The position numbers and the translations under genes were made by a program. Positions 48,943 through 53,310 of a DNA stretch of 64,000 nt are shown here, in pieces. The notes under the pieces are model-generated. The model had not been told where the DNA came from. It did not search any database and saw only the letters and a program-made list of their open reading frames with translations. The stretch comes from a virus. The stretch is from positions 124,001 through 188,000 of the IMG/VR virus record IMGVR_UViG_3300034358_000008. One strand, 5' to 3'. How positions within the stretch are numbered: position 1 is the stretch's first letter; the number at the start of each line of letters is the position of its first letter.

Positions 48943-50321
48943 TGTCTTATGATTCAACGTTACTTAACAAAGCCGCTGAACGTGTGGTCAATGATGGCGA
49001 AGGTTACTACAACACCCGCATGAGTATTAACATTCGTGCTGGCGGTAAGTGGATTAAGCCTAACCGTTTTGACCACCAACATATCGCGCGAGATTACAGT
49101 ACTGGTCCTCTAGGGGATATTCGTCAGATTGAGGTATTGATGTTGTTGGGTGATTACACCTACGATATCTTGCCTTATCGTGATAACCTCATGGTGGACA
49201 TAAATGAAACCCCGCTTGTTATGGGTACTAGTGCCCGTAACTGGGAACGCTTTGCCGGTACTAAACGGTTTAAAGCTGTGTTGGACCTACAAGGGCAAGA
49301 CAACACAACCCTAACCAACAAGCAAGCCCCAATGACCAGCCGTGAGCAGATGAACCAAGTCGGTATGAAGTCAGTCGTATTCACTTTGGTAGATGAGTTG
49401 TGTTATAAACTCATGATGCTGACTGTGGGTGTTACGCTACGTCAAATGACAACACTCGATATGCTTACATGGATTCACAAGCATTACTTCGATCAGGTCT
49501 TTGATGGTTCGAACAAACGTATCGAAACCTTAAACATATGGAAGCAAGACTTTAACCCTGAGATACAACACCAGATTGCTTTCCCTGATGGGATGCTATT
49601 GAAAGACGTAACCAAGTTCCTACAGAACGACGAAGCGGGTATCTACCCAACCGGGTGTGGTCGTTATATCCAGAATGGTCAATTCTACGTTTATCCCCTG
49701 TTTGATACAACTCGATACCAGAAGCATTCCAAAGTCCTCAACATTATCAACATGCCTAACGAACGATTCAAAGGTACTGAGAAAACATTCCTTGATACCA
49801 CACGATCCCTAACGATTATTTGTACGGGTGGTAACACGAGTGAAGACTCATCCACCAGTAAGAATATTCAAGACGGCAATGGTTTTCGTTTTGGTGATGC
49901 CAAGAAGCTTTTGCAGATGGGTACTATCAAAGACAACCGAATGCTGATTGACCGAGCTACTAACCTTTTCGAGGTGGCTACTGAAGCACTCGCTGAAGGT
50001 ATCAACAACGTACGCTGGGCAGCTGATCGCTTTACTGGTAACCCATTGAAGCAGTACACGCAGATGGCTCAGAAACGTGGACAGAAGCTGGACGTGGAAT
50101 GGTTCCGCTCTAACCCCGACCTCTTAGAACCCGGCATGCCTGTTAAGTACCAGACTTTGGATGGTAATACAGTTAAGACCTACTACGGTACGCTATTGGG
50201 TGTGAACGATAACCGCATCCCAACTGATGGCGGTAACAACACATCCAAATATGACGGTATCGCTAACCTGAGTTTGTTCTTGGTTCGTGCTACTGAAAAT
50301 GAACGTGTAACGATTGCATGA
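48942..50321 (+). CDS. Virion structural protein
   Basis: 459 aa, last of the four coupled virion genes; ends just before the early-type gene block. Contains a folded N-terminal region and a Thr/Ser-rich loop (GGNTSEDSSTSK, near residue 290). Function not identified. Confidence 0.5.
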   Translation: MSYDSTLLNKAAERVVNDGEGYYNTRMSINIRAGGKWIKPNRFDHQHIARDYSTGPLGDIRQIEVLMLLGDYTYDILPYRDNLMVDINETPLVMGTSARNWERFAGTKRFKAVLDLQGQDNTTLTNKQAPMTSREQMNQVGMKSVVFTLVDELCYKLMMLTVGVTLRQMTTLDMLTWIHKHYFDQVFDGSNKRIETLNIWKQDFNPEIQHQIAFPDGMLLKDVTKFLQNDEAGIYPTGCGRYIQNGQFYVYPLFDTTRYQKHSKVLNIINMPNERFKGTEKTFLDTTRSLTIICTGGNTSEDSSTSKNIQDGNGFRFGDAKKLLQMGTIKDNRMLIDRATNLFEVATEALAEGINNVRWAADRFTGNPLKQYTQMAQKRGQKLDVEWFRSNPDLLEPGMPVKYQTLDGNTVKTYYGTLLGVNDNRIPTDGGNNTSKYDGIANLSLFLVRATENERVTIA

Positions 50322-50334
50322 CGTGGAGACCGCG

Positions 50335-50736
50335 ATGAACATTTTGATACACATTGATTCGTCGTGGTCATACCACTTTTTCGAATTCAACAAACCTGCG
50401 ATTAGTACCCTAGATTTCTTTGAGTTCATAGACACGTTCTATAGCTCAGCAATGCTCTACCTGCAAACCCATGTTAACCATCGTTTCGGTTTACGTGCAC
50501 CTGAGTACAATGACGGCATAAATGGCTCCATGCAAATTTGCAATAAGTACCCAGAGTTAGCAGAAAAGATCTCTCAGGCCTTCAGAGATTTGCATCACCG
50601 ACATAGACCATCATTGGGTGCCCTGCAAGGCCCTATAACGAAGATACAGACGATTTGCGATGACACGGGTATACTGACTGCCATTGTAGTCACCATTGAT
50701 ATTAGAAGCAGTTTAACGCCTATATTACACTTGTGA
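50335..50736 (+). CDS. Hypothetical protein with an early promoter in its 3' end
   Basis: 133 aa from ATG 50335 (GGAGA site); an earlier in-frame ATG at 50314 overlaps the preceding gene. Rich in aromatics (WSYHFFEFN) with no motif recognised. A TATATTAC early element lies within its final codons, so it belongs to the preceding transcript and the next genes to an early one. Confidence 0.55.
   Translation: MNILIHIDSSWSYHFFEFNKPAISTLDFFEFIDTFYSSAMLYLQTHVNHRFGLRAPEYNDGINGSMQICNKYPELAEKISQAFRDLHHRHRPSLGALQGPITKIQTICDDTGILTAIVVTIDIRSSLTPILHL
50721..50728 (+). promoter_or_regulatory. Early promoter element TATATTAC
   Basis: TATATTAC followed by ACTTGTGAAC, matching the shared pattern TATATTACnnnnGTGA. 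Lies inside the end of the 133-aa gene, 29 nt before the next ATG. Confidence 0.75.
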
Positions 50737-50756
50737 ACTTACAGGAGTAATGACCT

Positions 50757-50924
50757 ATGGATAAGGCTACAATTGCGTACGAGAAAGCTCATCAAAAAGC
50801 GATCGAGCATCATTGGAAAGAAAATGTCATGAATGACCGCACGGTCAGACTGATAACCCCAGTGCGTGTAGCTGTAACGTTTGTTGTAACGCTGTTAATA
50901 ACTTTCTACTTTAATGGTTTATGA
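50757..50924 (+). CDS. Small early membrane protein
   Basis: 55 aa from ATG 50757 with an AGGAG site. Charged N-terminal 30 residues, then one hydrophobic helix near the C-terminus (VAVTFVVTLLITFYF). Directly behind an early promoter. Not recognised. Confidence 0.6.
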   Translation: MDKATIAYEKAHQKAIEHHWKENVMNDRTVRLITPVRVAVTFVVTLLITFYFNGL

Positions 50925-50934
50925 GGTAAGCATC

Positions 50935-51108
50935 ATGTTCGGCAATTTCTACGATGAAAAGAAATCCAAAGAAGCTAACGCAGAAGAATTCGCGAAGGCA
51001 CATCACAACAAAGAAGTAACCCAGCACTACGTCATTGCAGTGGCGTTGTTCACTGGTCTGTGTGCAGCAATCGTTGCCGGTAAGAAGGTGTACGACGAAG
51101 TAAGATAA
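50935..51108 (+). CDS. Small early membrane protein
   Basis: 57 aa. Charged N-terminal half (FYDEKKSKEANAEEF) and one hydrophobic helix at about 33-49. GAGG site. The ORF start at 50914 is upstream and not preferred. Confidence 0.55.
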   Translation: MFGNFYDEKKSKEANAEEFAKAHHNKEVTQHYVIAVALFTGLCAAIVAGKKVYDEVR

Positions 51109-51122
51109 GGATGCCCAATTAG

Positions 51123-52373
51123 ATGAGTGAATATCAAACGACTCGTCCCAATGGTAGCCAATTCGTTGCATACGTGCTAACGCATACACAAAGTGGCAAA
51201 GTGTACGTCGGTAGCACATCAAACCTTCAGAGACGGATCTGGGAGCATCAGGGTAAATTAAAACGTGGTACTCACCATAATAGCGAGCTTCAGAAACTTT
51301 ACGATGCTAGTAATGAGATAGAATTTAATTCTTTCCCAGCACTGGATAACGTAACAGTCCTGGAACTGGAAAGAGATATTATCTCAGAATACGCCGTTAT
51401 GGGTAATGTGCTTAACGTTATTAGTGATCCTGTTAATCCATCAGTTACTAATCCTCCTTTGATTCAGTATCGCGATTCTATAGCTAAACGTGTCAGCATC
51501 GACGGTATTGAATATACGAGTATAAAACAGGCTGCGAAGACACTGAGTTACAGTAAACAGAAAATACAATATTGGTTAAAGAGTGTGAGCACTGCCCACG
51601 AGAATGTTTTCTACGTGGGATCGCCAAAAGAAATCTCTGTTACTGGACGGGTAAACCTATCTGAATTGGCTCGAGCCAATGGGTTATCTGTATCGACTGT
51701 TACAGCACGGAAAAGAACGGGTGTATCGGCAGATGAGTTATTTCTACCGGTCGTCGATTCAACCGTGAAAAAGCTTTCTGACTATCTTGGTTTGAACTAT
51801 TCAAAAATTTGGTATCAACTAAATACAAAGGGACTGTCACCCAATGAAATAATACAGAAGTATTTAAGTGAGTCAAATATGACCAAAGAAAATGTCCAAT
51901 TCGTAATAGGTACCGATATCTTCAAACAGGATGGCGACCTTTACATAATCACGGTTAACTGTGTTGGTGTAATGGGGGCCGGATTAGCCAAATCTTTCAA
52001 AGAAGCCCATCCCGACCTATATGAACGCTATCGTCATGATTGTCGGATGAAGATTATTACAATCGGTAATCCTGTAATCTACACAGCTGATAACGGCAAG
52101 CACTACATGATGTTCCCTACTAAGGATCGCTGGCAAGATCCATCACTACCTGAATACATTTCCTCTGGCTTACAGTGGATGGTGGACTCGGTTGGTGAAG
52201 AAGGTGATATCGACCCGGCGTGGAAAATAGTAATCCCTCCTTTAGGGTGCGCTAACGGCGGGCTTAGTTTCGCAGACGTAAAAGAAAACATAAAACTCTT
52301 TGCTGGGCACATGCCTAATGAAGTTGTAGTGGTCTATCCTCCGTGGATGGAAACCACGAATGCATGGGATTAA
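51123..52373 (+). CDS. GIY-YIG homing-endonuclease module fused to a DarG-like macrodomain
   Basis: 416 aa. Residues about 14-100 are a GIY-YIG nuclease (AYV...Y28VG, R37/R38, E81-LER, N97); 120-155 and 175-250 hold helix-turn DNA-binding repeats (SIKQAAKTLSYSKQKI, NLSELARANGLSVSTV, KLSDYLGLNYSKIW) as in homing endonucleases. Residues 253-416 are a macrodomain: VNCVGVMGAGLAKSF (278-292), MMFPTKDRW with K334, and IPPLGCANGGLSF, the DarG pattern for removing ADP-ribose from DNA or protein. M253 could start the macrodomain alone, but the frame is continuous. Likely an endonuclease inserted in front of a macrodomain gene. Confidence 0.8.
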   Translation: MSEYQTTRPNGSQFVAYVLTHTQSGKVYVGSTSNLQRRIWEHQGKLKRGTHHNSELQKLYDASNEIEFNSFPALDNVTVLELERDIISEYAVMGNVLNVISDPVNPSVTNPPLIQYRDSIAKRVSIDGIEYTSIKQAAKTLSYSKQKIQYWLKSVSTAHENVFYVGSPKEISVTGRVNLSELARANGLSVSTVTARKRTGVSADELFLPVVDSTVKKLSDYLGLNYSKIWYQLNTKGLSPNEIIQKYLSESNMTKENVQFVIGTDIFKQDGDLYIITVNCVGVMGAGLAKSFKEAHPDLYERYRHDCRMKIITIGNPVIYTADNGKHYMMFPTKDRWQDPSLPEYISSGLQWMVDSVGEEGDIDPAWKIVIPPLGCANGGLSFADVKENIKLFAGHMPNEVVVVYPPWMETTNAWD

Positions 52374-52380
52374 CATAACG

Positions 52381-52400
52381 CCCCCGGCTAACGCTGGGGG
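52381..52400 (+). terminator. Terminator
   Basis: CCCCCGGC-TAAC-GCTGGGGG stem with CATAA before and TTTATGCC after; seals the macrodomain gene. Confidence 0.85.
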
Positions 52401-52425
52401 TTTATGCCGTTACGAGGAGACAGTT

Positions 52426-52839
52426 GTGCGAATAAGCATTGGTGAACAAAGCAGTATCATGCAGATGTGGAATGAACTGAGTGAAGTACTCGGGTTCAAT
52501 GAGTTCGTTGATCCTACCGCTCATGCAGTCTCTAAGACTGTTAAAGATTTTCAAGAGATCGATGATGAGCTTAAACGTCGTCGTGAGCCGGTAAAGGAAG
52601 AGCGACCTTCGTGGTATTACCAAGCAGCTACTCGACCTTATCCGAAGGGGTATCGTTACCCGCAAGGTATGGGGATTGCTCGTGCAATCAAAGAAGAACG
52701 TATCGGTACACCGTTGGAACGCTTTGAGTGTTTCTACGAAGCTGAGACTGATGTGATACAAGAAGCAGTCAAAGAGAATCTGGGTGCACCGGGGTATATG
52801 TCGTACCGCGATGCTTGTAACACAGGCAGTTGGTATTAG
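52426..52839 (+). CDS. Early hypothetical protein (GTG start)
   Basis: 137 aa. GTG start at 52426 with strong GAGGAGA site; an ATG at 52360 in the same frame lies in the preceding gene and crosses the terminator. Tyr/Pro-rich middle (RPYPKGYRYPQG). Not recognised. Confidence 0.6.
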   Translation: MRISIGEQSSIMQMWNELSEVLGFNEFVDPTAHAVSKTVKDFQEIDDELKRRREPVKEERPSWYYQAATRPYPKGYRYPQGMGIARAIKEERIGTPLERFECFYEAETDVIQEAVKENLGAPGYMSYRDACNTGSWY

Positions 52840-52854
52840 AAGCCAACTGAAGGC

Positions 52855-52862
52855 TATATTAC
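52855..52862 (+). promoter_or_regulatory. Early promoter element TATATTAC
   Basis: AAGGCTATATTAC followed after 4 nt by GTGAAT; 33 nt before the next ATG. Expected to drive the small-gene block from 52896. Confidence 0.8.
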
Positions 52863-52895
52863 TACTGTGAATTAACTTAACTGAAGGAATCTACC

Positions 52896-53222
52896 ATGTC
52901 TCAAAAAGTGAAACAAAAGCACGTCTATCAGATCTGCGAAGGCGAACTGGTATCTGCTGAAATCCTGTGGCCTGATCGGGAAGAAACCAAAGGTAAGTTC
53001 GTAGCTACCGGCATCATGGTTTTCCCAAACGGTGATCTGGGCGGTGAAGTTCGTACTTCCCTGATCGTCTCAGGCAGCAAAGAAGAAGGCCAGGTCGAAA
53101 CATTGAACTCGATCTATAAGTTCGTGGATCGCCCTGCCGACAAAGAGCAAACTGACAATGGCCTGTGGGGTGCAGTACGTCCCATGATGAGCCAAGAAGA
53201 GAAAGGTGAACAACATGCGTGA
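52896..53222 (+). CDS. Early hypothetical protein
   Basis: 108 aa. AAGGAA site. Beta-rich look with Gly-Asp turn (NGDLGGEVRTSL), ending in a hydrophilic tail (SQEEKGEQHA). Its end overlaps the next small gene, whose start is out of frame. Confidence 0.6.
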   Translation: MSQKVKQKHVYQICEGELVSAEILWPDREETKGKFVATGIMVFPNGDLGGEVRTSLIVSGSKEEGQVETLNSIYKFVDRPADKEQTDNGLWGAVRPMMSQEEKGEQHA

Positions 53223-53310
53223 TCTGGTTAAAGGCTTGGTCGGTATCGTGGTTGTGGTGATTGCAGTACGGATTATCTACGAAGTGGTAGATGACGCCGT
53301 TAACGCATGA
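53215..53310 (+). CDS. Very small early membrane peptide
   Basis: 31 aa (MRDLVKGLVG...), one hydrophobic helix (LVGIVVVVIAVRII) with charged ends. AAAGGTGA site; overlaps the preceding gene by 8 nt and the next by 4 nt (ATGA). Too short for many gene finders. Confidence 0.55.
   Translation: MRDLVKGLVGIVVVVIAVRIIYEVVDDAVNA

Follow-up and report, generated by a model that had tools for sequence, protein, structure and literature searches.

A free-standing I-TevI-like endonuclease gene has probably inserted into the leader of a conserved macrodomain gene in a jumbo phage and become fused to it in frame, giving a single protein whose two halves would be active in homing and in ADP-ribosyl hydrolysis, respectively. 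In the mechanism proposed here, the GIY-YIG gene would have entered the 5' leader of a chimallivirus macrodomain gene of the gp167/PHIKZ104 family, replaced the ribosome site and start codon of that gene and ended in frame with it. The sole macrodomain of the phage would now be the C-terminal domain of the endonuclease, expressed under an early-type promoter and through a ribosome site that is lacking in an empty-site relative. The nuclease half would still cut alleles without the nuclease gene at or near the site and spread by homing, and the macrodomain half would hydrolyse ADP-ribosyl groups as a member of the DarG/TARG1 class, its most likely target being ADP-ribose that host enzymes attach to phage DNA, in the manner of DarT, or to some other macromolecule. 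The fusion is known from one genome, a metagenome assembly.

A GIY-YIG endonuclease and a macrodomain in one reading frame

The window, a stretch of 64,000 nucleotides from an IMG/VR virus record of 324,912 bases, belongs to a Pseudomonas-type, 201phi2-1-like (phiKZ-related) jumbo phage of the nucleus-forming group. Among annotated phages, 201phi2-1 and Viktualia are closest, with ~71% DNA identity over head genes, and the 201phi2-1 gene order gp162-163-164-165-166-167 is preserved. The unit under study and its surroundings comprise the following features.

50721..50735, + strand: early-type promoter motif TATATTACNNNNGTG (201phi2-1/phiKZ), upstream of the unit; the window has 4 matches where 0.02 would be expected
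50935..51108, + strand: homologue of 201phi2-1 gp166, which in relatives immediately precedes the macrodomain gene (syntenic in L001, L002 and L006; start taken from the sequence)
51123..52373, + strand: endonuclease-macrodomain fusion ORF, 416 aa, with an ATG start and no internal stop
51168..51392, + strand: GIY-YIG catalytic domain, residues 16-90 (Pfam GIY-YIG, E 1.1e-8)
51471..51584, + strand: I-TevI_DNA-bd/NUMOD1 DNA-binding module, residues 117-154 (I-TevI_DNA-bd, E 1.1e-6; NUMOD1, E 7e-4)
51630..51872, + strand: one or two more putative helix-turn-helix beads, residues ~170-199 and 213-250 (weak Pfam HTH, PDB and model helices)
51879..51881, + strand: internal ATG (M253), the sole nearby candidate for a separate macrodomain start (SD energy; in-frame start scan)
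51894..52370, + strand: macrodomain, orthologue of 201phi2-1 gp167/PHIKZ104, residues 258-416 (identity, omega, pLDDT)
52122..52124, + strand: K334 codon, equivalent to the catalytic K80 of TaqDarG by alignment (PMC5179494) and invariant in 10/10 homologues
52380..52401, + strand: terminator-like hairpin after the ORF (-18.5 kcal/mol), with equivalents in L001, L002, L006 and L007

The early-type motif is tabulated for 201phi2-1 and phiKZ (PMC7058600), and the next one after 50721 lies at 52855. The terminator-like hairpin 3' of the macrodomain gene is kept in L001, L002, L006 and L007 despite quite different stem sequences.

A first-pass annotation, made from the sequence alone, had described one continuous frame joining a GIY-YIG homing endonuclease with helix-turn DNA-binding repeats to a DarG-like macrodomain, and this description holds. 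The N-terminal 252 codons comprise the GIY-YIG domain and the I-TevI-type DNA-binding modules and the C-terminal 164 codons the macrodomain; the GIY-YIG, I-TevI_DNA-bd and Macro matches (the last over residues 277-388, E 9.3e-7) all exceed curated Pfam cut-offs. The GIY-YIG match together with a modular C-terminal DNA-binding region of the I-TevI type (I-TevI_DNA-bd, NUMOD1) bears out the homing-endonuclease identity. The repeats are matched by the same DNA-binding models, by weaker HTH matches (a PDB match to residues 169-199 has a weak E of 0.17) and by helix pairs that the structural model places, with low confidence, at 134-155, 179-198 and 213-250. The motifs VNCVGVMG, FPTK (K334), W337 and PPLGCANGG were found at the positions given for them, and M253, proposed as an internal start, is the only in-frame ATG, GTG or TTG among codons 230-270. 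AlphaFold modelled the macrodomain well (pLDDT ~90 over most of it) and the nuclease half poorly (mean pLDDT 61.6), so no conclusion is drawn on the joint architecture.

In the nuclease half, Y17, Y28, R38, H42 and H51 align with I-TevI (1mk0) within the scored alignment, and E83 and N98, outside the scored PDB alignment, stand by eye at the places expected for the metal-binding Glu and the motif E Asn. This half has no close relative: the best is 40% identical over 94 residues, and when it was used by itself to scan IMG/VR there was no match. A second GIY-YIG endonuclease ORF is present in the same record outside the window (G000:C1:290322-290573, L005; a 271 aa open frame). It is apparently free-standing, and its catalytic part is 35% identical.

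The macrodomain is a resident gene of phiKZ-like phages

Stand-alone macrodomains of ~158-164 residues are encoded by 201phi2-1 (gp167), Viktualia, phiKZ (PHIKZ104), PhiPA3, Psa21, RVTF4 and phiHQ, as well as by a set of IMG/VR contigs, and these homologues begin at or adjoining the point where the macrodomain of the window begins. Noxifer and Goslar, which are more distant, likewise have macrodomain genes without a nuclease extension, and the macrodomain proved to be stand-alone in every relative examined. The window macrodomain is 90% identical to that of L006, 79% to that of 201phi2-1 and 63% to that of phiKZ. It is under strong purifying selection, with an omega of 0.088 against L006, within the range of other pairs. 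No second macrodomain gene was found elsewhere in the 325-kb record, the fusion copy being the only one.

By synteny and sequence, gp167/PHIKZ104 and the window macrodomain are the same gene with the same catalytic motifs, and 201phi2-1 gp167, like the window unit, has an early-type promoter upstream and a terminator hairpin downstream. They differ in that the gp167/PHIKZ104 genes encode stand-alone proteins of 160-162 aa, with their own SD and leader hairpin and without an endonuclease, whereas in the window the family's own start is replaced by the endonuclease frame. These comparisons indicate that the macrodomain is an old, conserved phiKZ-like resident gene at its usual place and that only the fusion is new. 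The earlier interpretation needs amending on this point: by synteny and orthology the macrodomain is no cargo of the nuclease but the resident gp167/PHIKZ104 gene, with the nuclease gene as the newcomer in its leader.

Existing labels for this family are of little help: the macrodomain gene of RVTF4 (L022:2495-2971) is annotated as a 'cysteine-type peptidase', probably an annotation error, and the PHROG 335 label 'phosphatase' for macrodomain relatives is uninformative.

The macrodomain is DarG-like

The DarG pattern proposed for the macrodomain is well supported at the active site. K334 and W337, equivalent to K80 and W83 of TaqDarG, are invariant in the 10 homologues aligned, none of which has lost the catalytic lysine. 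By sequence and by fold the best match is to a hydrolase family, DarG and then TARG1. The NCBIfam DarG model matches the macrodomain alone with an E of 2.2e-39, a resemblance well above chance, and the only significant PDB profile matches are DarG structures (M. tuberculosis, 1.3e-28; T. aquaticus, 7.3e-24; Thermosipho DarTG, 4.8e-20). In the fold ranking DarG is followed by TARG1 and then Poa1p, with the Streptomyces SCO6735 type lower. The window macrodomain shares with the DarG macrodomains of T. aquaticus and M. tuberculosis (5m3e, 5m3i) the fold (TM-score 0.83-0.85 by target length), the FPTK lysine and the tryptophan three residues on. Unlike them it has LGCANGG instead of LGxGNGG, the equivalent of G119 in this loop being alanine in the closest phage homologues, and it is without a C-terminal DarT-binding domain or an adjacent darT. 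The match to the DarG model NF048014 ends at position 152 of 338 and scores 135.7 bits against a cut-off of 250. DarG proper is rejected on these points (no C-terminal DarT-binding half, no neighbouring darT, a score below the NCBIfam cut-off), and the domain is best described from its sequence as DarG-like, not DarG.

Removal of ADP-ribose from DNA is our leading guess for its activity because of the DarG-best sequence and fold matches, because plasmid homologues of the macrodomain sit directly behind darT genes, and because the macrodomain of TaqDarG suffices by itself to rescue cells from DarT, which its K80A mutant fails to do (PMC5179494). An anti-DarT function is plausible. Knockdown of PhiKZ104 lowered ChmA accumulation without substantially changing plaque counts; the authors of that study suggest that the gene is beneficial where the host has other defence systems (PMC12571901). 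Among the known phage anti-DarT factors, AdfB of ICP1 is a 77-residue protein described as a DarT-binding mimic (PMC11481870), not a macrodomain.

The main competing view, less probable than DNA as the substrate but a substantial contender, is that ADP-ribosylated DNA is not the substrate of the macrodomain. It might instead act, like Poa1p, on ADP-ribose-1''-phosphate arising in RNA repair, on proteins that carry ADP-ribose, or on the soluble ADP-ribose signals used in host immunity. The fold is shared by TARG1 and Poa1p, which rank next to DarG, neither a DarT match nor a NADAR partner was found in the record, and degradation of soluble ADP-ribose derivatives or RNA repair has been proposed for jumbo-phage macrodomains (PMC7824862, PMC9503650). 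Against this view stand the PDB profile matches, significant for DarG structures alone, and the invariance of W337 in the alignment; the equivalent W83 of DarG is placed to stack on thymine, although the W83A mutant stayed largely active (PMC5179494).

Insertion of the endonuclease gene into the macrodomain leader

The uninterrupted macrodomain leader, that is the empty site, is found in L006, L007, 201phi2-1 and Viktualia; the endonuclease is thus polymorphic in presence, its relatives carrying an intact site. Comparison with L006 by blastn placed the junctions at window 51132/L006 5970 and window 51898/L006 6005.

51116..51132, + strand: retained 5' part of the macrodomain-gene leader (CAATTAGATGAGTGAAT), its ATG now the fusion start; the element is present at the same gene in 5 relatives
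51133..51897, + strand: inserted segment, 765 nt relative to the empty-site phage L006, replacing 34 nt

The 34 nt lost relative to L006 held the Shine-Dalgarno GGAG of the macrodomain gene together with its start codon, ATG, and first codons. Half of the conserved leader hairpin is also gone, its 3' arm being replaced by the insert. The insert contains only endonuclease coding sequence. Its nuclease stretch (51133-51893) has a G+C content of 40%, compared with 46-47% in the surroundings, which falls in the lowest 1.1% of same-size stretches. A group I intron or an intein was rejected: Rfam gave no match at E up to 1 in 50300-53300, and the insert has no spare flanks.

Beside the insert, identity to L006 in a codon alignment is just 68-70% over the 90 nt with which the macrodomain begins. 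Further in, positions 51981-52130 (150 nt) are 98.7% identical to L006, above any 150-nt stretch of the compared flanks. This tract is suggestive of a recombination or co-conversion footprint, which is not relied on here because L006 and L007 are also close to each other there.

The leader itself appears to be a conserved element. It occurs at the macrodomain gene once per record on that strand in 201phi2-1, Viktualia, L006, PhiPA3 and Psa21, and is essentially unique per genome, G000 having one extra match on the other strand.

L001:5967-6009, L006:5952-5997, L019:3930-3994, L021:2434-2494, L020:2435-2497 and others: examples of the leader element

Leaders of 13 stand-alone macrodomain genes were examined, and all have CAAT-(T/C)-(A/T)-(A/G)-ATGAG or a sequence close to it; behind it comes a hairpin whose end is near the Shine-Dalgarno (z-scores -1.35 to -5.7). 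The element has no Rfam match. Formal covariation is slight in the 201phi2-1-like subset (one pair changed on both sides), and a MAFFT alignment of the phiKZ-like subset yielded no consensus fold. We regard the CAAT..ATGAG element with its hairpin in phiKZ-like phages as a candidate regulatory leader RNA.

Probable translation from the captured start

The fusion ORF is preceded by its own Shine-Dalgarno-like site.

51107..51111, + strand: AAGGA, Shine-Dalgarno-like site of the fusion ORF, missing from the empty-site relative L006

The duplex energy with the anti-SD is -6.0 kcal/mol for the fusion ATG against -1.7 for the same ATG in L006. The native SD of the macrodomain has an energy of -6.4 kcal/mol in L006 and -9.3 in 201phi2-1, and this site is lost in the window. 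Upstream of the macrodomain match, 252 codons are open in the window against at most 50 in phage homologues. An alternative hairpin is predicted around the fusion start codon (51105-51160, pairing GAUGAGU with ACUCGUC, start codon inside, z ~ -2.7); it recalls the translational hairpins of T4 endonuclease genes (PMC2988022), an unproven likeness.

The macrodomain is most likely produced as a fusion, because the native SD and ATG are lost, the ribosome site of M253 is unremarkable and the fusion start has the better SD, and also because the 325-kb record contains no other macrodomain. We consider it unlikely that the unit functions as two proteins, with the long frame incidental and the macrodomain made mainly by internal initiation at M253, like the stand-alone homologues. 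M253 lies four residues before the ancestral start with little structure around it, is the sole in-frame start nearby and would give a macrodomain close in length to the stand-alone homologues; the native SD and ATG are, however, absent, the M253 SD energy of -5.0 kcal/mol is equalled or beaten by 32% of the 700 window ATGs tested, and the fusion start has the stronger SD. Of the first-pass proposal that M253 might also yield the macrodomain alone, the possible start stands, but the case for its use is weak because the native ribosome-binding site is lost. Both products, the fusion and a free macrodomain from M253, could coexist.

Relation to known homing endonucleases and fusions

Like I-TevI and the free-standing T4 Seg homing endonucleases, the window enzyme combines a GIY-YIG module with I-TevI-type DNA-binding beads and is located between conserved phage genes, with an empty site in relatives. 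The Seg genes of T4 are separate genes, whereas the endonuclease frame in the window continues into the neighbouring gene. Homing endonucleases next to conserved phage genes are ordinary, and in T4 those nuclease genes that have a promoter of their own are transcribed from middle or late promoters (PMC2988022); in contrast, the window endonuclease appears to be part of an early-type unit. Among chimeric proteins with a nuclease domain of homing-endonuclease origin, a close parallel is Odn of ICP1, in which a T5orf172/GIY-YIG-like nuclease is joined to a satellite RepA domain (PMC8263062). The Odn partner is a DNA-binding domain that redirects cleavage, whereas the partner here is a conserved enzyme domain.

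No other fusion of this kind turned up in the searches of phages, plasmids, IMG/VR and GTDB. The full query matched 289 phage records, none with at least 80% of the query covered at one place, and the macrodomain alone matched 319; there was no further fusion in 84 plasmid records or among the loci retrieved, and a scan of GTDB genomes gave no relative. In the literature searched, no paper contained both 'GIY-YIG' and 'macrodomain'. The unusual step is that the start signals of a conserved gene have been captured, a selfish gene becoming the N-terminus of that gene's product.

A more ambitious reading, which we hold to be improbable, is a two-in-one element in which homing spreads a counter-defence enzyme to rival jumbo phages, the macrodomain allele being co-converted, and the DNA-binding nuclease half brings the hydrolase to phage DNA in the phage nucleus. 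Very improbable indeed is an assembly or sequencing artefact, in which a chimeric contig, or an error fusing the frames of a nuclease gene that really has a stop of its own, gave the fusion: it does come from a single IMG/VR contig, but the matches to L006 on the two sides agree in order and orientation, the insert removes the native start region and not merely a stop, and the upstream ribosome site has changed relative to the empty site in a way that looks like adaptation.

Biological significance

The insertion and in-frame fusion of the endonuclease gene tie a selfish gene to a gene under purifying selection. This arrangement could protect the nuclease from loss, because a clean deletion would need the start site to be rebuilt. 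In addition, the DarG-type macrodomain kept across phiKZ-like phages is a testable candidate for countering DarT-type defence, and attention is also drawn to the conserved leader hairpin before the macrodomain gene. In nucleus-forming phages, the fusion would also serve as a natural experiment on the sorting of a nuclease, together with its passenger, into the phage nucleus.
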